Shown: positions 17-39,198, counted from the first letter of the stretch. The stretch is 64,000 bases of DNA from Fibrobacter sp. UWR2 (GCF_002210285.1 NZ_MWQE01000004.1:1-64000); one strand, 5' to 3'. Translations and numbers: made by a program. Notes: generated by a model from the sequence alone, not told the origin.

Positions 17-1231
17 TCAAACAACGGACGATGACACAGTTTGATTTACACTACCATTCCCTTTGGCTCGGTTATGCGACTTGCAGAGCATTTCGCAGTT
101 GGCGCGGTCGGTTGCGCCGCCCTTGCTCCATGCGGTTACGTGGTCGGCGTCCATTTCGGCGAGTTTCCAGATTTTGTTCTTGTTCGCATTTTCCGACATG
201 GCACAGTATGGGCAGTTGGATCTTCCTGTCGTTTGAGCCTTGGCTGTTTGCACCGCATAGACGCTTTTCTTGGTAGCGTCATCGAACACGCGGATGTTCA
301 AAAGTTTTTTATCTTGTTCGCCACCCAAGATGTATTCGAAAATTCCCTTGCGGTCTTTGACATATGGGTCCGCATATAACGCCAACACTTTCTTTTGAAT
401 TTCGCCCGGATTGTAGGCGGTTGCGTGGTAGGACTCATACAGCCGTCCCCATTCCAGCCCCTTCATCTCGGACTCTGTGCATTCAAACACGCTCGAAATC
501 CAGTCGATGACGGTCGTGAAATACAGTTTCAGCTCGTCGATGGACTTGTCGCGGCGATGCATGGATATATATTCGCCGATGGATAGATTGTTGTGGGCGG
601 CGACCCATTCAAGGGCCGTTTCCAAAATTTGCTGCCGCCTTGGATCGCCCGAAACGTAAGTCTGCCATTTCTGCATGTTGGCGTTTTGCGAATTGGAGAA
701 GACGGACTTCGCGGCAGTGACAAATTCGCCAGAATAGACTGCGTTCAAGAGTTCCTGATTGTTCAGGGGAACGCCCGCGATGTTGATGGTCTTGAACCAT
801 TCCTTGATTTCAGTCTCGGCGCCTTCACATTCATAGACTAGCAATTCATAGTTTTCAAGTTGCTGTTGAGTTTCGGCATTCAAGCCTGAAAAATATTGCG
901 GTATGCCGTTTGTATCAAAAATGGCCAGCTTGCCCGTCAAGAAACGACCGATTGATGTGATGCGCTGCTGACCGTCCAGAACTTCAAAACGGGCTTCGTT
1001 GTTTTCTGCCGTTACTTTGTTGAAATAGATGAGTCCAAGCGGATAGCCCTTGAGCATGGAGTCGATGACGGCGACATCGCGCTTGCCGTCGGCGTAGATG
1101 TAGTTACGTTGGTATTCCGGCTGGATGGTGAGTTTTCCCGAAAGCCCGAACAGGCCCTTGCCTTCGAGTTCGTTATAGACAAAGCCTTCGCAGATTTCCT
1201 TGACGGTGTAGGTCTTGAGTTGCGTTTTCAT
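17..1231 (-). CDS. DUF262 / HNH endonuclease-domain protein
   Basis: About 404 residues. The N-terminal DUF262 (ParB/Srx-like NTPase) part carries the family hallmark DGQQR near residue 88. The C-terminal ~60 residues form an HNH module: CPYC, then [12 protein letters not shown], then a CxxxHN element. This architecture resembles GmrS/GmrD-type modification-dependent nucleases and other defence proteins, so a DNA-cleaving defence role is inferred. The start at 1231 (MKTQLKTY) is preferred over the upstream ATG because GGAGGG lies just before it. It lies 14 bp downstream of the interrupted EcoRI-type methyltransferase gene on the same strand, so the two were probably one operon before the prophage inserted. 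Confidence 0.8.
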
Positions 1232-1245
1232 TTTCCCTCCTCTTG

Positions 1246-2345
1246 TCATTCCCGGCTTGACCGGGAATCTCCTTTTTGCCTGATAAGGACACGGGCATAA
1301 ACTTGTTGGTACATTTTATCATTCACAATGTAATACGTGTCGCCATCGGGAATTTCGGACAATTCGATTGTAGCACCATCGTTTAATTTGGTTACACGAC
1401 TTCTTTTCCCATGCTTGTCAACTTGAATTTGTTCAGGATAGACTTTATTCGCACCGCCAAACCATGTCTTGGTTATTCCCAAAATTTCAAACTGTTCGGG
1501 ACAATACTTGTCCAAGAAAGAAATCGGGACACCCATCACGCCCTTGTAATCACTTGGGATTGCGTCGGTATATGGAACTTCGATGGCGTCGTAATTGTCG
1601 TATTGTTTGTAACCAACACCCTTGACTTCTTTGTGCCTGCTGAACTTGATGTTGTCCGCTTCAGTCATCAAGGACAGCGGTTCATGACGACGACCATGTT
1701 CAATGTTGGTAAACCAACGAACACCTTTCACTCTGATAAAGTGATTTCCTTTTTCATCAATTCTCCACCCAGCAGCCTCAAGTGGATATTCCTTTGGAAC
1801 TCCAAATTCTCTATCTCCACTATGAATTGTCGCTCCTAACCAAGTTTCGTTTTCCTTCAACAATGGAAAAATTTCCTTATACGTAATCGCATTCATGTTT
1901 CCGATTACAGTGAAACGTTTTTTTGATTCCATAATCCACGCGACAAACTCCCGAAACAAACTAAATGGCGGATTGGTAATGATGAAGTCTGCTTCGTCTC
2001 GCAACCGCATGATTTCATCGGAGCGAAAGTCACCATCGCCTTCTAAATATTGCCATTCCAAATCATGAATGTCTATGCGACCATTCTTGTTGGTGTCGTG
2101 GTCGAGCGTGAAAATTTTGCCCCTGATTTTCGACTTGTCCACATCGAACCAGGGGGCCTGCTGTTCGAACAACGTCGGCTGCCAGTCTTTGATTTTGTAT
2201 TTCTTGGACTCGATGGCGTAAGACGTCGAAATGAGTTTCTTCAAACCCAGTTTTTCAAAGTTCTGCGCAAAGTAGCGGGTGAAATTGCTCCATTCTGGGT
2301 CGTCGCAAGGAAGCAAAACGGTCTTGCCACGGAATACGTTCTCGT
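1246..2345 (-). pseudogene. EcoRI-type adenine methyltransferase, C-terminal part (interrupted by prophage)
   Basis: Recognisable as EcoRI-family N6-adenine methyltransferase from VFRGKTVLLPCDDPEW through the catalytic motif IV NPPF (in FIITNPPFSLF). The reading frame stays open upstream to an ATG at 2430, but residues before ENVFRG come from the prophage left end. The missing N-terminus lies on the other side of the prophage at 38277-38387. Joining 38387-38277 to 2340-1246 gives exactly 1206 bp (402 codons) in frame and restores LEYDENVFRGKT. The fragment lacks the family's N-terminal segment and is probably inactive, although a fused start inside the prophage end could allow some translation. 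Confidence 0.88.
2341..2345. repeat. Left copy of 5-bp target-site duplication (CTCGT)
   Basis: CTCGT here and at 38277-38281 are the only bases shared by the two junctions. Keeping one copy restores an unbroken methyltransferase reading frame. A 5-bp duplication is the size made by Mu-type transposition. Confidence 0.88.
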
Positions 2346-2846: not shown

Positions 2847-3668
2847 TTACACATTTAATATAGATTCTTTTGGGTCGGACGGAACATTATTTTCACCTTT
2901 TTTCTTCTGGAGTATGGCGGCGAACTCTTCGATGGTGGGCACCTGGAGCGTTCCCTTGCCGTAGGGGTTCGGGGAGCGCATCTGCGGGCAGCCGGTGCCG
3001 AGTTTTTTGCTGGTGGCGTATTTCTTGACCATTTCGTGGACTTCGAAAACGTTGAAGTTATAATCGAAGCGGTCGAAGCCGTAGAACTGGAGCACGGTGC
3101 CGATGAACGGATCGTGGAAGACGAGCTTTTCTTTCTGCTTAGCGAGCGATGCCGTTTTCTTGAGCAGCATGGGGAGCAGGAGTTCGAGCTGGTTGTCGGT
3201 TTCGGCTTGTTCGGGGGTCTTCTGAGATCCCTGGAAGTCCTTCCAGTTCCTGAGTGCGGCATGCCAGTCGGAGAGCGGAAGCCCGGATTTCATCTTCCAG
3301 CCGGTCATCGAATAGTAGTTGTAGAAGCGCCTTGCGCAGTCTGCGGACTTGCCGAGTTTTGCGGCATACTCGACGGCTTCGTCTTCGCTTGCAGGGCGGT
3401 TGCCTACGTTTGTGCGGGTGTTCTTCCCGGAGCGCTTGACGGACACGACGCAGTAATCGTCCTTGATGCCTACGGCGTCCTCTGCGTGCATGATAAAGGT
3501 GATACGCACGGTAAGGCTACGGCCTGTTTCATTGCCGCCTTCGGTTTCGAAGAGCACCAGGCGGTCGCCGACGCAGTAGAGCCTGTCAACCTTGTGGATG
3601 ACGAAGGTCAAATCGCCGTTCATGAGCGATTCAAAGTTCCTTTTTCTGATTTTCAAGACGTATTCCAT
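2847..3668 (-). CDS. DUF3850 (ASCH-like) N-terminus fused to phage helical domain
   Basis: About 273 residues from the start MEYVLKIRKRNFESL (3668). Residues 1-80 match the DUF3850/ASCH-like pattern (LKI..R.FE.L..G, VGDRLVLFE). Residues 120-150 carry FYNYYSMTGWKMKSG..LSDWHAALRNW, a motif seen in phage replication-accessory (DnaT-like) proteins. The family functions are not well defined; ASCH folds are thought to bind RNA or modified nucleotides. It follows a second ASCH-type gene with a 5-bp gap, giving two such folds in tandem. The fusion is clear, the role unknown. Confidence 0.65.
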   Translation of the reverse strand: MEYVLKIRKRNFESLMNGDLTFVIHKVDRLYCVGDRLVLFETEGGNETGRSLTVRITFIMHAEDAVGIKDDYCVVSVKRSGKNTRTNVGNRPASEDEAVEYAAKLGKSADCARRFYNYYSMTGWKMKSGLPLSDWHAALRNWKDFQGSQKTPEQAETDNQLELLLPMLLKKTASLAKQKEKLVFHDPFIGTVLQFYGFDRFDYNFNVFEVHEMVKKYATSKKLGTGCPQMRSPNPYGKGTLQVPTIEEFAAILQKKKGENNVPSDPKESILNV

Positions 3669-3673
3669 AGCGT

Positions 3674-4051
3674 TTACCTCACGAATTGCCAGCTTTGCGG
3701 TGCCCTTCTGATGTGCAGATCTTCGGGATAGAGCCAATCGGGACCGTATTCATCGACGCCGCAAATCTCCCAACCGTAGAGCTTACCCCTGCCTTTTGCC
3801 TTGTATTTCTCGATTTCATCGAGAGAAACGCACGAATTTTCGACAATTTTGGGCGTTATTTCGGTGATTTCGTGGTAAAAATTCACGTATATGACGCCAG
3901 TGATGCTTTTCAGGTCGGTGTCGTAGAGGTAAACCTTCAAACCGTCGCCGTCCAATGCTTTCGGGGCGGTCTTGCGGAGTTCCAGAGTCTTTTCGCCGCT
4001 GTAGATCATTTCTGCCCACTTGTGGTGGATGCTCATCAGGATTTCTTTCAT
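3674..4051 (-). CDS. ASCH-domain protein
   Basis: A 125-residue protein starting MKEILMSIHHKWAEMIYSGEKTLELRKTAP. The I.H..WA..I..GEKT.ELRK pattern is the hallmark N-terminus of ASCH domains, which are related to PUA folds and proposed to bind RNA or nucleotides. Aromatic residues near the C-terminus (YGWEICGVDEYG) fit the family. It lies between the endolysin and the DUF3850 fusion in the early operon. Phage ASCH proteins have no settled function. Confidence 0.7.
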   Translation of the reverse strand: MKEILMSIHHKWAEMIYSGEKTLELRKTAPKALDGDGLKVYLYDTDLKSITGVIYVNFYHEITEITPKIVENSCVSLDEIEKYKAKGRGKLYGWEICGVDEYGPDWLYPEDLHIRRAPQSWQFVR

Positions 4052-4063
4052 CTTTCGACTCCT

Positions 4064-4597
4064 TTACAGTAGCGCGTTGACCTTGGCGGCGATTTCGAAC
4101 ATGCGTTCTTCCAGGTACTGGCCGGGGCAGGCCTTGTTCTTGAACCACTTGTGGAGCGTCATGTTCTGGACGGGTTCGCCCTTGTCGTCCAGCTTGCCGA
4201 CAAGGGTCTTGTCGTGGAACCAGCGGAGCTTCTGGATGCCGTTACGCTTGCAGATGTCGGCAACCAAGTAAATGAGGCTTGAAAAGGCCTCGGCGGTCAC
4301 GGCATACGGTGCGGTGTCGTCGCTCGATACCTCGATGGTGACGGCGCGGTTGTCGTTGGCTGCGTTGCTTGAACACCAGCTGCGGTCGGCTTCATCGACA
4401 TAGAGCGCGATGTGGCCCAGGTCGTCGATGCCGTAGTTGCTTGACGCCATGCGGCCCTTGGCAGAGAAGAGCTTGCCGAGCGCACGCACGTTGATGTGGC
4501 CTGCGGTGCAGTGGATGGTGATGGTGTCTATCTTGTGGTTCCGGGGCGTTGTCCTGTTCGGGCTTATCTCTGTGTGCGATACTAGCGGGCTGTTCAT
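4064..4597 (-). CDS. N-acetylmuramoyl-L-alanine amidase (endolysin)
   Basis: 177 residues with an Amidase_2 / T7 lysozyme-like fold. A zinc-ligand histidine lies in TITIHCTAGH (about residue 29), followed by VTIEVSSD and then LHKWFKNKACPGQYL, which supplies the second histidine and the cysteine of the CPG motif. The predicted activity cleaves the amide bond between N-acetylmuramic acid and L-alanine to release virions. There is no signal peptide, so export would need a holin; the 38-residue membrane protein immediately upstream is a candidate. A GGAG site precedes the ATG. It lies in the early operon rather than with the late genes, unlike Mu. Confidence 0.85.
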   Translation of the reverse strand: MNSPLVSHTEISPNRTTPRNHKIDTITIHCTAGHINVRALGKLFSAKGRMASSNYGIDDLGHIALYVDEADRSWCSSNAANDNRAVTIEVSSDDTAPYAVTAEAFSSLIYLVADICKRNGIQKLRWFHDKTLVGKLDDKGEPVQNMTLHKWFKNKACPGQYLEERMFEIAAKVNALL

Positions 4598-31611: not shown

Positions 31612-31925
31612 CTACAGACCAGATTAAAGAAGAAGTCCAGCTCTCGCTTACCGTCGCCAAGGGATCCTTTTACAAGAAGCCCGAATTTGGCCACCGCTTC
31701 AAGGAACTCGCCCGGGAAGTGGCGCCCGAGAAGACCAGGAGCAGGGCCGAAACATACGCCGCCGAGGCGTTGCAGTGGATGATTGACTACAAGCACCTGA
31801 AAAGCGTCGTCTCGACGGCTACCTATATCGATAGCGACAAGCTCCAGGTGCATGTGGAATGTACCGCCTACAATGGCGACGTGATTGAATTTACCCGTTT
31901 CGTGGAGGTTAGACAATGGCCGTAA
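31608..31925 (+). CDS. gp46-like baseplate wedge protein (gpW-like)
   Basis: 105 residues. QIKEEVQLSLTVAKGSFYKKPEFGHRFKEL, then AETYAAEALQWMIDYKHLKSVV, matches the Mu gp46 family (L.i..g.f....fGs.l). This small protein is the wedge/sheath-initiator equivalent of T4 gp25. Overlaps gp47 by 10 bp. Confidence 0.85.
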   Translation: MTTDQIKEEVQLSLTVAKGSFYKKPEFGHRFKELAREVAPEKTRSRAETYAAEALQWMIDYKHLKSVVSTATYIDSDKLQVHVECTAYNGDVIEFTRFVEVRQWP

Positions 31926-33124
31926 CAGTTGACCAGATCTTTCAGCGCATGGTGACCGATGCGAAGAATATAGACCCGCTGATAAATATCAGCCAGGGCA
32001 CGGAAACCTATATCCGCTTCGCGACAGCCGCGTCCGCCATTTGGGGCCTATACAAGCAGATGGACTGGACCCTTGACCAGATTTTCCCGACCACGATGAA
32101 CCAGGAGAGCCTGGAACAGTGGGCGAACGACCGAGGGCTGGACTACAGCAACCTGACCGCAAGCGAGCTTTTGACGCTCATCCTGTCGTATCTTCGCAAC
32201 CCGAAGAGCGGCGGCAAGCCAAGCGACTACGAACGCTGGGCGCTCGAAGCGTCTTCTGCCGGCAAGGCTGTCGAGCTCGAATCCTCGATGATTTCCGGCA
32301 ATATGCCCGACCTGAGCGCCGCCAACGCCGTCAAGCCGCACGACCGCGAGAACATCGCCTTTACCTGCGGCTCCAGCGACACCGAAAAGTATGTCGTTAT
32401 TGACTTTGGCGGTTCCAAGGAAATTATCGGCATCGGGCTTGGCTTCATTACCAACCGACCGGCTTCTTTCAATGTCTATACGTCCGACGATGGCTCGACC
32501 TGGACCAAGCAGGGCAAGGTTGAAAGCGCCTACTGGTGGGCCATGACCACTTTCGAATCTGTTTCTACCCGATATGTCAAGGTAGAACTCGACGAAATCG
32601 AGGCTCTTGAAAGCTGGCAGACTGCATCCCTGAACGCCGTCAAGTGCTTCGGACTCGAAATCTACGAACCGGCTGAATCCGACGAAGCCCCGACGACATC
32701 CCGATGCCTCAAGAACTACTACGGCGTGGGCACGGTGCTCATGCTCATTGGCCCCAGCACGCTCTCTATGCGCTGCTGCGAAGCCGTCCGCGTCAAGTGC
32801 GAAGACGAAGGGCCGGTGGCCCCGCGTGAAATCTGGGTCAATGTCCCTGTAGAAACGACCCTTTCCCTGCGCGTCACGGTAAGCGGCTTGTCCAATATGG
32901 ACGAAGACGGCTTCCGGGAAGACGTGACCAAGTATTTTGCCGACCTCAGCGCAGGCGACCTGTTTATCCCCGCCCAGATTGTCGTGTTCGTGCTCAAGCA
33001 CGGCGGGTCCAATGCCGTTGTCGAGGTCTCGAAGAACGGCGGGGCGTACCAGGAACAGACTTCGGCAATCTATCCCGAAAATGAAACAGACCGATTTGTC
33101 CTTGGTGAACTGGTGGTGCAGTAA
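31916..33124 (+). CDS. gp47-like baseplate J protein with inserted discoidin-like domain
   Basis: 402 residues. The N-terminus (RMVTDAKNIDPLINISQGTETYIRFATAASAIWGLYKQMDWTLDQIFPTTM...LEQWANDRGLD) and C-terminus (VTVSGLSNMDEDGFREDVTKYFADLSAGD) match Mu gp47/baseplate J. Between about residues 120 and 265 lies an extra beta domain: YVVIDFGGSKEIIGIGLGF, ASFNVYTSDDGSTWTKQG, TRYVKVELDEIEALESWQTASLNAVKCFGLEIYE. This is the F5/8 type C (discoidin/CBM32-like) pattern and would place a glycan-binding module on the baseplate. Confidence 0.82.
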   Translation: MAVTVDQIFQRMVTDAKNIDPLINISQGTETYIRFATAASAIWGLYKQMDWTLDQIFPTTMNQESLEQWANDRGLDYSNLTASELLTLILSYLRNPKSGGKPSDYERWALEASSAGKAVELESSMISGNMPDLSAANAVKPHDRENIAFTCGSSDTEKYVVIDFGGSKEIIGIGLGFITNRPASFNVYTSDDGSTWTKQGKVESAYWWAMTTFESVSTRYVKVELDEIEALESWQTASLNAVKCFGLEIYEPAESDEAPTTSRCLKNYYGVGTVLMLIGPSTLSMRCCEAVRVKCEDEGPVAPREIWVNVPVETTLSLRVTVSGLSNMDEDGFREDVTKYFADLSAGDLFIPAQIVVFVLKHGGSNAVVEVSKNGGAYQEQTSAIYPENETDRFVLGELVVQ

Positions 33125-33708
33125 TGAGTGAAAATTTTTTCGATAGTCGGCATTACAGGGCGCTCTCGCGGCTGCACCCGCTCCAGATGGACCTGGAAGA
33201 GTATGCGGTGTGCAAGGAGCTTGACCGCGCCCTGGAAAGCGCAGACGGCGTTTACCGCGAAATCTTCCCCAGTTCGGCCACCGCGACGCTCGAAAAGTGG
33301 GAAAACCTTTACGAATTAGGCCATTCCGGCACCATTGAAGCCCGCAGGGCGGCGCTCCTGGAAGCCATCAACCGTGATTCTGGCATTGCCGAACGCCACT
33401 ACAAGGCGCTTGCTGCGTCGATGGGCTTTGAAATCGACATCGTGAAGCCGCCGCGCATGTTGCGTGCGGGCCTTGGCCGTGCGGGTTTTGAAATCTACGA
33501 CCCGGACGAACAGTACACCTGGACCGTGACCAGCGACCACCCGCAGCACGGCATTTACCGTATCGTGGACCTGCTCGAAGCCGAGAAAATCCCGTTCACG
33601 CAGATCCGCTGGCAGATCTCTAAAGAAAAATTCCTTGAACTTGAGGACGGCAAGCTCCTGAAGCTCGAAAGCGACAAATTCCTTATCCTGGAGGACGAAA
33701 ATGAATAA
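33124..33708 (+). CDS. gp48-like baseplate wedge protein (DUF2313)
   Basis: 194 residues. LSRLHPLQMDLEEYAVCKELDRALESADGVYREIFPSSATATLEKWENLYEL matches DUF2313 (Mu gp48), which joins the wedge to the tail fibre network. The C-terminal 40 residues consist of repeats of the type KFLELEDGKLLKLESDKFLILE. GTAATGAGTG junction with gp47; 8-bp overlap with the next gene. Confidence 0.85.
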   Translation: MSENFFDSRHYRALSRLHPLQMDLEEYAVCKELDRALESADGVYREIFPSSATATLEKWENLYELGHSGTIEARRAALLEAINRDSGIAERHYKALAASMGFEIDIVKPPRMLRAGLGRAGFEIYDPDEQYTWTVTSDHPQHGIYRIVDLLEAEKIPFTQIRWQISKEKFLELEDGKLLKLESDKFLILEDENE

Positions 33709-34588
33709 GATAAATTTTAAAACGGGCACTATCATTCCCCCGGAACTGATGAATGCCTTGCAGAATCCGTCGTTCACGAATGATGAAGAAGAGGCCGGAC
33801 ACTTGCCCTTGCCGCCCAACTACGGCAAAAAGGTCCAGGTGTTCAATACGGAAAACCGTGCAGTGGACCTGTCTACTGCTTCGAGTGGCTTTGCCGTCGT
33901 TATCCATCACAGTTCTTCGCTGTCCGGCGAGCCTGAAACGGTCACGATTGACGGCGTCGGCGGCACCGGGGCCAATACGATTCTACTGGTAACCCGTGGA
34001 ACGGACTATCCTGTAATTGTATCTTTGCCGCAGAATTCTGTTTCTCGCAAGGAAATCTCTATCAAGGGCGGTTCAAGCGTCCTTTTGACGTTCTTCTCCT
34101 ATGGTGCTGCGTACGTTTGGAAGTATTACGAGCTCGAAACCAACCCGGTCGCCATGACCGATACGGGCTGGAAGAGCTTTACGCCCGGAGGCGTTTCTAC
34201 CGATTTCGTGAAATTCGCCACGCTTAAGGTCCCCAAGGACTACAGCGCAATCGTGATGGTCAAGGGAACAGGTCATTCTGAATATCCGGTAACGTCGGGT
34301 AGTACAGGCATTGTCAAAGAATATACCTTCAAGGCAATAGACGCCAACAATAACGAAGAAAACTGCGAAATGTCCATTCTTAAAGTCAACGAATATGGGC
34401 GACAAACTCAAGATTATGACGCCAGGGATGACCGTTTCAGCGGATATCTTGTTATTCCGCCATTGAGCACACCAGCACAGCGCAGCGTCGATTTGAAACT
34501 TAAAACAAACCAAGAAGCGATTACTATTGCGGCGTCCTTCAGGGCGCTGCTCTACAAAGCGAACCTTGACACGACTTTACTTGCATAA
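33701..34588 (+). CDS. Tail fibre-like protein
   Basis: 295 residues. The N-terminal ~70 residues (INFKTGTIIPPELMNALQNPSF..DEEEAGHLPLPPNYG) resemble the attachment regions of phage fibres. The remainder is beta-rich, with no recognised carbohydrate-binding fold. Position directly after gp48 corresponds to the Mu S (fibre) slot. It may be a structural base for the following tip proteins. Confidence 0.6.
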   Translation: MNKINFKTGTIIPPELMNALQNPSFTNDEEEAGHLPLPPNYGKKVQVFNTENRAVDLSTASSGFAVVIHHSSSLSGEPETVTIDGVGGTGANTILLVTRGTDYPVIVSLPQNSVSRKEISIKGGSSVLLTFFSYGAAYVWKYYELETNPVAMTDTGWKSFTPGGVSTDFVKFATLKVPKDYSAIVMVKGTGHSEYPVTSGSTGIVKEYTFKAIDANNNEENCEMSILKVNEYGRQTQDYDARDDRFSGYLVIPPLSTPAQRSVDLKLKTNQEAITIAASFRALLYKANLDTTLLA

Positions 34589-34597
34589 GAGGTGACT

Positions 34598-34978
34598 ATG
34601 GCTAACAGTAACGAAGCATTCGAAGGCGAAAAGACCGGGCAACTTTCCCCGGTGACTCTTGCCGCCGCACGCGAAAACCACTACGAAGGCGTTTTCAGCA
34701 TTCAGGGGAGTTCCAAGCGTCTTGATGCGGCTGAAATCGCCGGAACGGCTGACATCGAAGATGAGTATAGCGAAAACGGGTACTATGTCGAAGGTGCCTT
34801 GAGGTATCATTCCGGTGTGCTTTACCGCGCCAAGAATGATATCGGCTCCGAGAATACCCCCGCCGGTCCGTGGGACTCTACCAAGTGGGAAGTGGCCAAA
34901 ATCGGGCGAATTATGGCCAGCAAGGCCGATGTAAATGCCGCCCTTGGCAATATCGAAACCCTCTTGGCGGCTATTTAA
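34598..34978 (+). CDS. Small tail-tip protein with CBM5/12-like module
   Basis: 126 residues from ATG 34598, with AAGAGG upstream; a GTG two codons earlier is less well placed. YYVEGALRYHSGVLYRAKND...TPAGPWDSTKWEV matches short carbohydrate-binding modules of the CBM5/12 type often found in phage tail fibres. Helical ends flank it. Predicted to bind a surface glycan; which one is unknown. It lies immediately before the DGR target gene. Confidence 0.6.
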   Translation: MANSNEAFEGEKTGQLSPVTLAAARENHYEGVFSIQGSSKRLDAAEIAGTADIEDEYSENGYYVEGALRYHSGVLYRAKNDIGSENTPAGPWDSTKWEVAKIGRIMASKADVNAALGNIETLLAAI

Positions 34979-34989
34979 GGAGGCTTTAA

Positions 34990-35907
34990 ATGAGCGTTGC
35001 AAGCGAAATTACGCGCCTTAACGGCGCAAAGGCCGATATTATCCAGGCCATCACCGACAAGGGCGTCACCGTGCCGTCTTCGGCGAAGCTCGACGACATG
35101 GCCCAGCTCATCGCATCCATAACCGGCGGCGGTGGTGGCGGCAATGGTGTATATTTACAGGCGATTCTTCCGGTTTTCGGCGGAAAAGTGCTTGTCGTGG
35201 ATGAAAATGGGTATATCGGTTGTAAAAGTCTCCCGACATATTATCCTTCAGCTTATACCAGTTATGCCTTTGTAGTAAGCGGTGCAGATTTTTCGAGTTC
35301 AGGTCTTGGCCAAGTAACTTTGGTTACTCCGGGAACGGCTGATATTGGAGGTCGTTCTTACCGAACTGTGTCTATTAACGGTGTCATTTGGATGGCTGAA
35401 AATCTTGATTTTAAGGCTTCTGGTATTGACATTGGGCCGTCTGGATCTCCTGGAACTCCCGCTGCATGGTACTACGATAACAGTGAAAGTACCTATGGCG
35501 AAAATGGCAATAAGTACGGGTTGCTCTATAATTGGCATGCAGTAAAGCATCTTAACGACAACCGTGAACTGTTGATGAACGGCTGGCATGTCCCTACAAC
35601 AGCAGAGTGGGATGCTTTAGCCAATGCCGTTGGAGGTACTGGAGTAGCAGGTTCGAAGCTTAAATCATCTACAGGATGGTCATCTGGTAACGGAACCGAC
35701 GACTTCGGCTTTGCGGCCTTTCCTGCTGGCTACCGGTACTCGGGCTCCTTCTACAGTTTAGGCAGCAACGCGTACTTCTGGACGGCCACAGAGAACTCGT
35801 CCACCTACGCCGACAGCCGTAGCTTTGATACGGGCGCATCGATGGGCTCGCACAACGTCAGTAAGACTTACTTCGCCTTTTCTGTTCGTCTCGTCAAGGA
35901 TTCCTAA
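34990..35907 (+). CDS. DGR target: tail-tip protein with C-terminal FISUMP (CLec-like) domain
   Basis: 305 residues. Residues 1-45 (SVASEITRLNGAKADIIQAI, VTVPSSAKLDDMAQLIASI) are a phage tail-tip segment, followed by a GGGGGG linker. From about 110 onward the protein reads as a FISUMP/Fib_succ_major domain: INGVIWMAENLDF, NGNKYGLLYNWHAV, NGWHVPTTAEWDALANAVGG, ending FSVRLVKDS. This is a C-type-lectin-like fold, the usual scaffold for DGR variation. Residues 240-305 are encoded by the variable repeat. AAGGAGG precedes the start. It is probably displayed at the tail tip as the receptor-binding protein. Confidence 0.9.
   Translation: MSVASEITRLNGAKADIIQAITDKGVTVPSSAKLDDMAQLIASITGGGGGGNGVYLQAILPVFGGKVLVVDENGYIGCKSLPTYYPSAYTSYAFVVSGADFSSSGLGQVTLVTPGTADIGGRSYRTVSINGVIWMAENLDFKASGIDIGPSGSPGTPAAWYYDNSESTYGENGNKYGLLYNWHAVKHLNDNRELLMNGWHVPTTAEWDALANAVGGTGVAGSKLKSSTGWSSGNGTDDFGFAAFPAGYRYSGSFYSLGSNAYFWTATENSSTYADSRSFDTGASMGSHNVSKTYFAFSVRLVKDS
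35707..35904 (+). repeat. DGR variable repeat (VR)
   Basis: 198 bp, aligned without gaps to the template repeat at 36901-37098. There are 19 mismatches, and 17 are at template adenines: changes to T, G or C at codons such as AAC to TAC, AGC, GGC, GTC, TTC and CAC. The other two are a T-to-G in one codon and a C/T difference near the 3' end. The 3' ~30 bases carry no adenine changes and are the likely initiation-of-mutagenic-homology segment. Confidence 0.95.
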
Positions 35908-35913
35908 GTGAGC

Positions 35914-35933
35914 CTAGGCCCTTTGGGGCCTAG
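35914..35933 (+). other. DGR target hairpin downstream of VR
   Basis: CTAGGCCC (35914-35921), loop TTTG, GGGCCTAG (35926-35933): a perfect 8-bp stem with a 4-nt loop, starting nine bases after the VR ends. The same dimensions and place are known for the hairpin/cruciform that marks the target for retrohoming in the Bordetella phage DGR. Confidence 0.8.
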
Positions 35934-35941
35934 AGCGAACG

Positions 35942-35970
35942 GGACCGGAGCGCCGCAAGGCGCACGGTCC
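35942..35970 (+). other. Second GC-rich hairpin after VR
   Basis: GGACCG pairs with CGGTCC, and within it GCGCC pairs with GGCGC, closing a GCAA tetraloop. An 11-bp stem interrupted by a small internal loop. It may be part of the target recognition structure or an mRNA 3' stabiliser. Confidence 0.6.
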
Positions 35971-36010
35971 TGAATTTAATTAAATTTGCCCCCCGGCTAA
36001 GCATCCAGAA

Positions 36011-36043
36011 GCAAGGCTGCGAAGCAGCCTTGCGAATTTTTTT
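36011..36043 (+). terminator. Terminator between DGR target and Avd-like gene
   Basis: GCAAGGCTGC / GCAGCCTTGC (10-bp perfect stem, 3-nt loop), then GAA and a T7 run that ends right at the ATG of the next gene. A strong intrinsic terminator that should separate late-operon transcription from the DGR accessory genes. Confidence 0.85.
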
Positions 36044-36871
36044 ATGAATACAGAAGACATCATAAAGTTTGAAAATAACGCCGGAAACGAACTCCATCTG
36101 TTTCGTGACAGACTGTTCTGGCAGGCTTGGGAACGTTCTGCGTTCCTTTTTTCAAAAATCTTTAGAAAATACCAGGTTCATCACAGATTCGTCCAAAAGG
36201 TCGCGCAGGACCTGGTGTGGCTCGGCTTCCCAAAGACCGTGCTCAAAGATGTCCAGATGACGGCGAAGCAGAAGGCCTTTTCTTATGAAGTATTGGACGA
36301 TTCTCATATCGTAATAAAGGGAATACCAAATATTGACGGCTTCCAGGAATGGAAATCTGGCATATTGTCTTCGCCTACGGCAGACAAGAAAAAGCCTGTC
36401 ACAAAAGATGCAAAAGACTCATCAAAGAAAGATGTAAAAACCGCTGAATTTTTGCTTTATAGGCTGGTTTTTGACTTTATCATTTATTCTTCAAAACTTG
36501 TCCCTAAAATCGACAGAGACTATAAATTCACCATCGGGGAACGGATAGTCAATGAGTTGGTGAACGTGGGAGAGTACATTTTTCTTTATATTAACCATAG
36601 AACGGCCATTGATTCGACCAGTGTGATAGATTCTTTATATCGAATACGGTTTGATTTTCGTCTTTTAAATGAACTTAAACAAGTAAGCATCGACCAATGG
36701 ATGTTTGTAAACACTAAAATCGAGGAAATTTTGAAAACGATAATGCCAGAATCCATGAGTTTACGGACGCATGGAGCGAGCAAAGAGGAATCCAGTATTC
36801 TGCCCTCATCACCGGGTCTTCCTGGTGACGGGTTTACACCGCTTACAAGATCCAATGAAAGCCTCTTTTAA
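36044..36871 (+). CDS. DGR accessory protein: unknown N-domain fused to Avd-like four-helix domain
   Basis: 275 residues in two parts. Residues about 135-235 (EFLLYRLVFDFIIYSSKLVPKIDRDYKFTIGERIVNELVNV ... LNELKQVSIDQWMFVNTKIEEI) match Avd, the helical-bundle protein that binds the DGR reverse transcriptase and template RNA and is needed for mutagenesis. Residues about 15-110 (LFWQAWERSAFLFSKIF, FVQKVAQDLVWLGFP, FQEWKSGI) form a separate domain; a lysine/aspartate linker joins the two. Typical Avd is about 125 aa, so this is a fusion. No ribosome site precedes the ATG, which directly follows a terminator T run. Confidence 0.8.
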   Translation: MNTEDIIKFENNAGNELHLFRDRLFWQAWERSAFLFSKIFRKYQVHHRFVQKVAQDLVWLGFPKTVLKDVQMTAKQKAFSYEVLDDSHIVIKGIPNIDGFQEWKSGILSSPTADKKKPVTKDAKDSSKKDVKTAEFLLYRLVFDFIIYSSKLVPKIDRDYKFTIGERIVNELVNVGEYIFLYINHRTAIDSTSVIDSLYRIRFDFRLLNELKQVSIDQWMFVNTKIEEILKTIMPESMSLRTHGASKEESSILPSSPGLPGDGFTPLTRSNESLF

Positions 36872-36900
36872 GCCTTATTAAATGAATACTCAGTCGTAAG

Positions 36901-37098
36901 GGCTTTGCGGCCTTTCCTGCTGGCAACCGGAACTCGGGCTCCTTCAACAATTTAGGCAGCAACGCGAACTTCTGGACGGCCACAGAGAACTCGTCCACCA
37001 ACGCCTACAACCGTAACTTTGATACGGGCGCATCGATGAACTCGAACAACAACAATAAGACTAACAACGCCTTTTCTGTTCGTCTCGTCAAGGACTCC
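36901..37098 (+). repeat. DGR template repeat (TR)
   Basis: 198 bp equal in length to VR. It is dense in AAC/AAT codons (if translated in the VR frame, mostly Asn at variable sites), which lets adenine-directed changes reach many residues while avoiding stops. It lies between the Avd-like gene and the reverse transcriptase, the usual order. It begins at GGCTTTGCGG and ends GTCAAGGACTCC; the VR equivalent has GGATTCC. Confidence 0.95.
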
Positions 37099-37116
37099 TC
37101 GGAGGGCACCATATCG

Positions 37117-38195
37117 GTGCCCTCTCTTTATCGTTTACTGTATAAATCCTATCGTTTAGCCCGCAAAAACAAGCGGAATACCAGAAGCCAGCTGAAATTC
37201 GAACTAGACCTAGAATCCAACCTATTAAGGCTTGCCCAGGAGCTCTATTCAAGAACTTACGAATTATCCCCGTCTGTATGCTTTATTAACGAATTACCCG
37301 TAAAAAGAGAGGTCGTTGCGGCTGATTTCCGCGACCGTGTAGTGCATCATTTGCTCTGCTCCTGGCTGTTTCCAATTTTCGAGAGACAGTTCATTTTTGA
37401 CTCATACAGTTGCCGCAAGGGTAAAGGAACCTTTTTGGCATAAATCGTGCCCGTGGATTCTTGCGGGCGGCCAGCAACGACTTTCACAGAGATTGCTGGG
37501 CCCTCAAGCTTGATGTAAAAGGCTTCTTCATGAATATCAACAAAGACCTGCTTTACGGGTTTATTATGGATGGCCTTGAACGAGCCAAATGGAGCGATGT
37601 CCCTGATATTGACCTTTGCAAGTACCTTATTAAGAAGATTGTCTATGCAAAACCGCTAGATACGGCTATATTCCGTAGTCCACCCGAAGCCTGGGACAAC
37701 CTTCCGCACGATAAATCGATGAAATATGCGGGCGACGAAAGAGGTCTACCTATAGGCAATCTTACTTCGCAGCTGTTCGGCAATATCTACATGAATAAAC
37801 TGGACCATTTCGTCAAAAGAGTGCTGAAAATACGCTATTATGGCCGATACGTTGACGATATGGTCCTTGTCTCAGATGACAAAGAACGGCTGGTCGATGC
37901 CATTGACCGTATTCGAAAATTCTTGAAAAAAGAGCTTCTTTTGACCCTTCACCCGCATAAAATACAACTACAGCCAGCCGCCTTCGGTTTTGACTTCCTT
38001 GGCGTCCATATATTGCCCTATAGGGTATATCCTGGCACTAGGGTGCTCAAAAACTGCAAAAAGGCCGTTGTCAATCCAGACAACGACCAAGCTAAACAGG
38101 AGTCAAGAATCAATAGTTACGAAGGAATGTTTAAGCACTTGAACGGAACCAGTAAAATTCGTAAATTTATAGCCGATTCAAGGAAACCTCAATAA
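37117..38195 (+). CDS. DGR reverse transcriptase, reading frame disrupted
   Basis: The first frame runs to TAA 37441; the second continues from inside it to TAA 38195. Joined by one missing base near 37429-37436, the sequence reads RKGKGT-LFGINRARGFLRAASNDF, an uninterrupted RT. The catalytic box is RYVDDMVL, and GLPIGNLTSQLFGNIYMN is the SQ-type motif 4 typical of DGR enzymes. GTG 37117 with GGAGGG ten bases upstream is the likely start; an ATG at 37036 lies inside the TR. The break could be a real mutation, a C/T-run sequencing error, or a frameshift site. Full-length product about 359 aa. Confidence 0.88.
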
Positions 38196-38228
38196 CCGTT
38201 CAATCGGTTTTGCAATTCAATTAAATTT

Positions 38229-38242
38229 TGTCTCACGAAAAG
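38229..38242. repeat. Prophage end repeat, right copy
   Basis: TGTCTCACGAAAAG is the reverse complement of the core of the left-end repeats (2511-2529, 2629-2647). A partial copy, TTCTCACGACAA, follows at 38252-38263. Likely right-end transposase sites. Confidence 0.6.
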
Positions 38243-38276
38243 CGGTTAGCGTTCTCACGACAACCGCGCCGTTATA

Positions 38277-38281
38277 CTCGT
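38277..38281. repeat. Right copy of 5-bp target-site duplication (CTCGT)
   Basis: Matches 2341-2345; defines the right boundary of the prophage and is the codon region where the methyltransferase gene is split. Confidence 0.88.
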
Positions 38282-38387
38282 CATATTCCAAGTAAGCATT
38301 CATCTCTTTTTCCACATCCGCAAACTGCGTGTAGAACTCGTCGTTCTTCGCCTTTTTAGCATTTGATAACAAAGCGTTTTTCGCCAT
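38277..38387 (-). pseudogene. EcoRI-type adenine methyltransferase, N-terminal part
   Basis: From ATG 38387 (AAGGAG upstream) the product begins MAKNALLSNAKKAKNDEFYT, continues DVEKEMNAYLEYDE, and then runs into prophage sequence to a stop at 38217. NAKKAKNDEFYT is the hallmark N-terminus of EcoRI-type methyltransferases. The rest of the gene lies at 1246-2345. The two pieces join in frame at the target duplication. The fragment alone cannot be active. Confidence 0.9.
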
Positions 38388-38441
38388 CGGGCTTGCTCCT
38401 TGGAGCTTGCCCTTATTCGTGTGCAAACATTGACGCTTTAG

Positions 38442-38485
38442 ATTCTCGCTGGAGTTTATCCCCACCTACGAGTGGGGGCGAGAAT
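38442..38485 (-). other. Compound hairpin upstream of the interrupted methyltransferase
   Basis: ATTCTCGC (38442-38449) pairs with GCGAGAAT (38478-38485), and inside it CCCCAC (38460-38465) pairs with GTGGGG (38472-38477). It lies in the 5' region of the methyltransferase gene; a controlling or RNA structure is possible. Confidence 0.45.
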
Positions 38486-39198
38486 GTCGACGCTGCTGTC
38501 ACACCATATAAAAAAGGCGTGAAGTTGAATGCACTTGTCTAGTCTAAGGCTCTCGACTGCCTGCAATCAAACAAGAACAAACAACTCACGCCCCAATCGG
38601 GCGACAGCACCGTCGGCATACGCCAGCAGTGCACGGCGAAGGAGGAACCGCCGCTGTCGAAATACACCCAAACGCACCATACCGGGTATAGCGCGTCAAA
38701 GCATATCTGCGTGAGCGTCCGTCTTATTCTCTGATTGCTTGAATTGTCGAGATTCTAGACTAGAGAATAAGAGCAAAAGCTCAAATTGCGAGCGTCGCAG
38801 AAACCGAGCTTGCTCGGAGTTTCTATGACCGAGCATGCAGAGCTTCTACAAAGCTCAAAAAAATGTCTATCGATAATATAGATTATTCGAAGAGGAAAGG
38901 AGAGGCCGCATCAGGTGCGGCACAACATTTGGGCGGGTGGGCGGGGGGAAGCCCGGGCGTTGCGAGCTGGCGTTTGAAGCCCGCTAGAAAGGGTAGTGAG
39001 CAACGGAGTGCGAACCAGGGGACAACTGCATAAGGCGAGTATCGCGACAAAAGTATGCAAGGCGAGAGAGCGCAAAAACTTGTTTTTGCATTATCGAGCC
39101 GCAGCGACGGACGTCATAGACGTCAAACCGCTAGCGGGCTGGCATGATCGAGCCGAGCAGTTGGGACTTTAGTCACACGCTTTCCCCTTTTTATATAG
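38486..39198. other. Gene-poor region with several hairpins
   Basis: About 700 bp with no convincing ORF on either strand. It contains hairpins such as CGAGC/GCTCG flanked by AGAAAC/GTTTCT (near 38809-38834) and GCCGCA/TGCGGC (near 38907). It does not show the signatures of RNase P, tmRNA or SRP RNA that I could check. It may be decayed sequence or hold an unrecognised structured RNA. Confidence 0.4.

Follow-up and report, generated by a model that had tools for sequence, protein, structure and literature searches.

Diversity-generating retroelements (DGRs) related to the one examined here have been described in several settings. In Bordetella phage BPP-1, a tail gene with a variable repeat (VR) at its 3' end (mtd) is followed by avd, a template repeat (TR) and the reverse transcriptase (RT) gene brt; changes from TR to VR are specific to adenines, and homing requires a hairpin after VR (Guo 2011, PMC3240598). 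FISUMP domains have been described as DGR targets both in human-gut DGRs (2014, PMC4159848) and in phages of Bacteroides uniformis (2021, PMC8143477). MutS-like (MSL) accessory proteins (PF01624, MutS domain I) are known for DGRs (PMC10053308), and in DiGReF group 3 the TR overlaps the open reading frame (ORF) of the RT (PMC3521204). We analyzed a 64,000-nucleotide stretch of Fibrobacter sp. UWR2 (GCF_002210285.1, NZ_MWQE01000004.1:1-64000; "the window", with coordinates on its plus strand unless marked) that contains such an element at 34990-38195. We are highly confident that it is a phage-borne DGR of the BPP-1 type, occupying the right end of a Mu-like prophage of Fibrobacter, with a frameshifted RT gene that has probably left the element frozen.

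The locus follows BPP-1 in its gene order (target with VR, avd, TR, RT), in its adenine-specific TR-to-VR changes, in a phage tail gene that carries VR at its 3' end and in combining an Avd-type partner with a DGR RT. It departs from BPP-1 in its target domain, which is FISUMP rather than Mtd, in the extra MutS-I-like domain of its accessory protein, in a hairpin that also stands directly after TR, in a TR that lies within the RT reading frame, in its frameshifted RT and in the Mu-like phage that carries it. The open frame running from TR into RT in this clade and many relatives recalls DiGReF group 3 (PMC3521204). As in the human-gut DGRs and the B. uniformis phages, VR occupies the C-terminal part of a Fib_succ_major (or DUF1566) domain (PMC4159848, PMC8143477), and as in the latter the DGR is phage-borne with Avd and RT; those phages, however, are Bacteroides siphoviruses with two VRs and a variable part of 35 amino acids, whereas the Mu-like Fibrobacter phage has a single VR of 66 codons. 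Although the sequence-only reading of this stretch implied that FISUMP was a new DGR scaffold, the two earlier publications show that a DGR with a FISUMP target is already known, phages included.

TR (36901-37098) and VR (35707-35904) each span 198 bp, with VR forming the final 66 codons of the target gene. Realigning them reproduced exactly what the sequence-only reading had reported: a gapless alignment with 19 mismatches, 17 of which fall at TR adenines. Because only 52 of the 198 TR positions are adenines, the probability of at least this bias is 1.6e-9. Of the two remaining changes, one turns T into G (repeat position 106) and the other C into T (position 195). The TR holds 15 AAC and 2 AAT codons, and these 17 AAY codons have a coding capacity of about 10^20 combinations. 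A genome-wide search revealed no further copies of TR or VR, including any remote second VR.

An RT query identified relatives in 22 of the 111 genomes of the family, the window's own counted, as well as in 18 viral contigs; the named relatives are rumen and other ruminant-gut Fibrobacter assemblies. In a panel of 12 elements whose TR and VR align to each other without gaps, 199 of 216 mismatches lie at adenines (Fisher p 4e-105), and 12 of the 17 others are one and the same difference, C in TR and T in VR at position 195, which all elements share. The adenines are mutated mainly in AAY codons (first A 55%, second A 34%, other As 8%), and the resulting codon changes comprise 164 non-synonymous and 19 synonymous changes with no stops, most commonly producing Tyr, Ser and Asp. 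At non-adenine sites that differ among lineages, for example the AAGTCAAA form versus the AAGACTAACAAC form, each VR matches its own TR, as repeated copying from TR requires. Divergence among close relatives is 6-15% in VR, 0-0.5% in TR and mostly 0-7% in the flanks. In one pair, L035 and L036, the RT and TR are identical and the VRs differ at 21 sites, all of them at TR adenines. Thus the comparison proposed in the sequence-only reading, that mismatches be confined to TR adenines and VR be hypervariable relative to TR and flanks, gave a clearly positive answer across the 12 elements. Since mismatches are adenine-specific in all of these elements and VR is hypervariable against TR and flanks, we conclude from these alignments that the DGR is real and has worked in close relatives of this phage.

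The 3' ends of both repeats carry distinctive sites. None of the adenines 3' of repeat position 173 is changed in any of the 12 elements, and this conservation, together with the fixed C/T difference at position 195, indicates that VR ends in a boundary resembling an initiation of mutagenic homing (IMH) site, at 35887-35904. Just 3' of VR lies an inverted repeat (35914-35933) with an 8-bp stem and a 4-nt loop. This hairpin was found in 13 of 13 elements, and two of them, L039 and L041, keep the stem with a different sequence. An IMH-like end followed by a GC-rich hairpin with an 8-bp stem and 4-nt loop is also the arrangement in BPP-1 (PMC3240598), but the loops here (TTTG, TTTT, TATT) show no obvious fit to the 5'-GRNA consensus. 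The hairpin directly 3' of TR (37101-37125) has a 10-bp stem and a 5-nt loop, and its arms contain a Shine-Dalgarno-like GGAGG and a GTG that may start the RT. In L041 the stem is preserved by compensatory pairs, and most of the divergent relatives tested form stems of 9-12 bp at about this site, with L031, L011 and L026 as the exceptions. No Rfam family matched within 33500-38600.

The RT gene is split into two ORFs that lie in different frames and cover consecutive parts of a single PHROG RT profile. The N-terminal ORF (37036-37443) matches PHROG 1423 positions 111-210 (E 8.6e-31), and the C-terminal ORF (37461-38195) matches positions 224-436 and RVT_1 (E 3.8e-14). The GLPIGNLTSQ and RYVDDM motifs named in the sequence-only reading are both present in the C-terminal ORF, whose best solved relative is a DGR reverse transcriptase (PDB 8ub7). 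That reading had also called the DGR complete; here it did not hold, as the RT gene is broken at about 37425-37443, where the window has one base fewer than every relative holding the stretch. Close relatives with the extra base have a single open RT frame, and we counted intact copies in at least 11. In the roughly 15 kb that align to L051, a single intragenic indel clearly breaks the frame without reconciliation, the one at the RT site; the other coding indels mostly cancel out or are multiples of three. A true mutation is therefore likelier than poor assembly. The C-terminal ORF retains the YVDD motif, but in the absence of the N-terminal part RT activity is unlikely. Because the RT is frameshifted here and intact in every relative with the stretch, this copy is probably a frozen DGR, switched off by a real, inactivating frameshift and fixed at its last variant.

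Damage elsewhere in the group takes other forms. In L052, a prophage in G081, a deletion with loss of frame splits the accessory (avd) gene (3575-4308), and the RT is intact. The viral contig L045 keeps VR and the target and has lost the equivalent of 36172-37959 (site 580-600), a deletion that affects the accessory gene as well as TR and most of the RT and could be a natural loss or an assembly artefact.

The open frame of the N-terminal RT ORF extends from 36886 through TR. Such an arrangement might mean that TR is translated together with the RT: two clades and several isolated lineages have TR in the RT reading frame, but among them we found no consistent start codon upstream of TR. In two distant relatives, L031 (1441-2901, minus strand) and L056 (5105-6478, minus strand), the frame running from TR into RT has the sequence QLDLF upstream of TR, a motif that resembles a sliding-clamp-binding motif.

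A Mu-like transposable prophage of 35,931 bp (2346-38276) has the DGR as its final element on the right and is flanked by a 5-bp duplication of the host sequence CTCGT at 2341-2345 and 38277-38281. In comparisons with seven relatives, homology to unrelated integration sites stops at 2344-2346 on the left and 38276-38277 on the right. The prophage encodes a Mu transposase C-terminal domain, Portal_Mu, a Mu F-like head protein and Gp48, as well as sheath, capsid and baseplate hub proteins. The proposal that a Mu-like phage carries the element is thus borne out by transposase, portal and head genes and by the target duplication, and Fibrobacter as the host of this DGR-bearing phage is likewise supported.

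The DGR target (34990-35907) is a protein of 305 amino acids, encoded by the last structural gene of the tail module, that combines an N-terminal helix and linker with a FISUMP (Fib_succ_major) domain. The domain occupies residues 127-303 and exceeds the curated cut-offs of both Pfam (E 7.5e-31, 108.3 bits versus 33.9) and NCBIfam TIGR02145 (E 3.8e-34, 118.9 bits versus 41.65). VR takes in its C-terminal part, and the view of FISUMP as the variable scaffold stands. A sequence search of solved structures with the target gave no match. Among solved structures, its AlphaFold model (mean predicted local distance difference test, pLDDT, 76.6) comes closest to the Legionella Lcl C-terminal domain, though the match is weak (probability 0.77, E 0.007); the next matches are mostly C-type lectins with E above 0.3. 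We take the Lcl domain to be a DUF1566 domain. In the model, variable positions follow an every-other-residue pattern (248/250, 260/262, 276/278, 286/288) within or next to predicted strands, as would be expected if they shared one exposed face. A tblastn search of phage records found no full-length homologue of the target, only weak FISUMP matches. From its position and its domain, the target is probably a receptor-binding tail-tip adhesin. In L037 and L052 the target-gene body upstream of VR differs by 32% and the remaining DGR by about 1%, which suggests that the FISUMP scaffold has been swapped between phages.

Several other explanations could account for parts of these data. FISUMP domains are, as general knowledge has it, repeated in Fibrobacter proteins, and several FISUMP matches occur near related loci, so TR and VR might be an ordinary gene duplication followed by divergence or selection on one copy, without retrohoming. 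We give this next to no credence: the adenine-specific mismatches of 12 elements and hypervariation of VR alone, beside a nearly invariant TR, rule it out, VR tracks its own TR at non-adenine sites, and a DGR RT and Avd adjoin. More weight attaches to the idea that the frameshift is an artefact of sequencing or assembly, in which case the organism would have an intact RT and a DGR that is complete and active here too. The break adjoins a run of five T, all relatives with the stretch are intact, and the mismatches between this copy's VR and TR are almost confined to adenines, like those of active elements. Yet the indel stands isolated in the alignment to L051, the assembly of 20 contigs is clean, with 100% completeness and 0.07% contamination, and other members of the group are broken too, L052 in avd and L045 by deletion of TR and RT; we consider an error unlikely, though not negligibly so. 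Programmed ribosomal frameshifting, with the split as normal regulation, would also reconcile the two ORFs, as the open frames share about 18 nt at the T5 run and would be joined by a -1 shift. No canonical slippery heptamer is present at the junction, however, and relatives from 98% down to about 50% RT identity all have one frame at this point, so we rejected this candidate as very improbable.

A different question is whom the diversified protein serves. It might act for the host cell or in superinfection exclusion instead of phage adsorption, as FISUMP domains are generally known to be typical of Fibrobacter surface proteins. DGRs with cellular targets also exist (PMC8144416). But the target gene lies inside the phage, directly 3' of baseplate and tail genes, its N-terminal module is conserved among the phages and no signal peptide is apparent in its sequence, making either role improbable. 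Other points weigh against a frozen DGR that varied a phage adhesin. The C-type-lectin fold of the target relies on the AlphaFold model, with its mean pLDDT of 76.6, and on weak PDB matches. The frameshift could be an assembly error, and the lone second copy at 100% identity, L034, most likely comes from the same genome. The evidence for activity of the DGR is comparative, namely the hypervariability of VR against TR and flanks. Finally, the T-to-G change at repeat position 106 lies outside adenines and has no explanation other than ordinary mutation. We nevertheless favor a real DGR, active in the phage group and probably silenced in this copy.

The gene between VR and TR (36044-36871) had been read as Avd-like. 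Its C-terminal half justifies that description, but the whole gene encodes a two-domain protein of 275 amino acids, with a MutS-domain-I-like region (about 1-109), a linker and an Avd-like four-helix bundle (about 127-233). The protein is about twice the length of the Avd profiles (104-107 positions), which match the C-terminal half only and weakly by sequence. This half is predicted to form a four-helix bundle matching S23-type proteins and the Avd chains of 4dwl and 8ub7, with a target-normalized TM score of about 0.75, and Pfam bAvd was detected in 15 of 24 relatives. A sequence search of solved structures gave weak matches only, one of them an S23-type four-helix protein, and a tblastn search of phage records found no homologue. 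A separate alpha/beta domain, conserved in the family, makes up the N-terminal 110 residues. In the G002 relative, Pfam MutS_I scores 20.6 bits, equal to its cut-off; the G027 relative reaches 18.7, and the window protein itself has no match. A profile-profile comparison of the N-terminus with Fibrobacter MutS gave P 8e-4 (score 25 versus a maximum of 20 in 60 shuffles); family profiles were used because comparison with a single approximate E. coli MutS fragment was uninformative. Conserved across the DGRs of Fibrobacterota, the two-domain form was detected in up to 27 of the 168 genomes of this phylum, some of the matches being fragments, and extends to families beyond the window's own. Like the MSL accessories (PMC10053308), it links a putative MutS-domain-I-like domain to a DGR; unlike them, it has that domain fused to the N-terminus of an Avd bundle. 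Our literature search, which did not reach the 2018 DGR survey, returned no description of such a fusion.

The neighborhood holds further features. The small protein encoded just upstream of the target (34592-34978) has the look of a chitin-binding-type tail-fibre module and no family match, and the baseplate J-like protein (31916-33124) carries an F5/8 type C (galactose-binding-like) insert at residues 134-227. The prophage interrupts an EcoRI-type adenine methyltransferase gene (1249-2430 and 38220-38465, both minus strand), which adjoins a GmrSD/HNH restriction-type gene (17-1249, minus strand); a second EcoRI-type methylase gene lies on contig C11 of the same genome.

By analogy with the biochemistry of BPP-1, the RT and its Avd-type partner would copy TR RNA, with errors arising opposite template adenines during cDNA synthesis. 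The cDNA would then replace VR from an upstream point of homology to the IMH-like 3' boundary marked by the post-VR hairpin, rewriting mainly AAC-derived residues in the C-terminal part of the FISUMP domain and so letting the phage try new host-surface ligands. In this genome the RT is frameshifted, and the element would most likely now be fixed at its last variant.

The element stands out for its Mu-like Fibrobacter phage setting, its fused accessory and its probably frozen RT. We suggest, tentatively and with more doubt than belief, that Fibrobacterota possess a DGR subtype in which Avd is permanently fused to a MutS-I-like domain that senses mismatches or hybrids, TR lies in the RT frame and the post-TR hairpin is conserved; if so, retrohoming and RT synthesis would be controlled otherwise than in BPP-1. 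The fusion of MutS-I-like and Avd domains is itself a lead on how mismatched cDNA/VR hybrids might be handled. Additionally, a natural experiment is offered by at least 10 closely related Mu-like phages from rumen Fibrobacter whose TRs are nearly identical and whose VRs differ. This panel holds one broken RT, one broken accessory gene and one loss of TR and most of the RT, and it makes testable how frequently phage DGRs are switched off and which ligands a FISUMP domain is able to bind.

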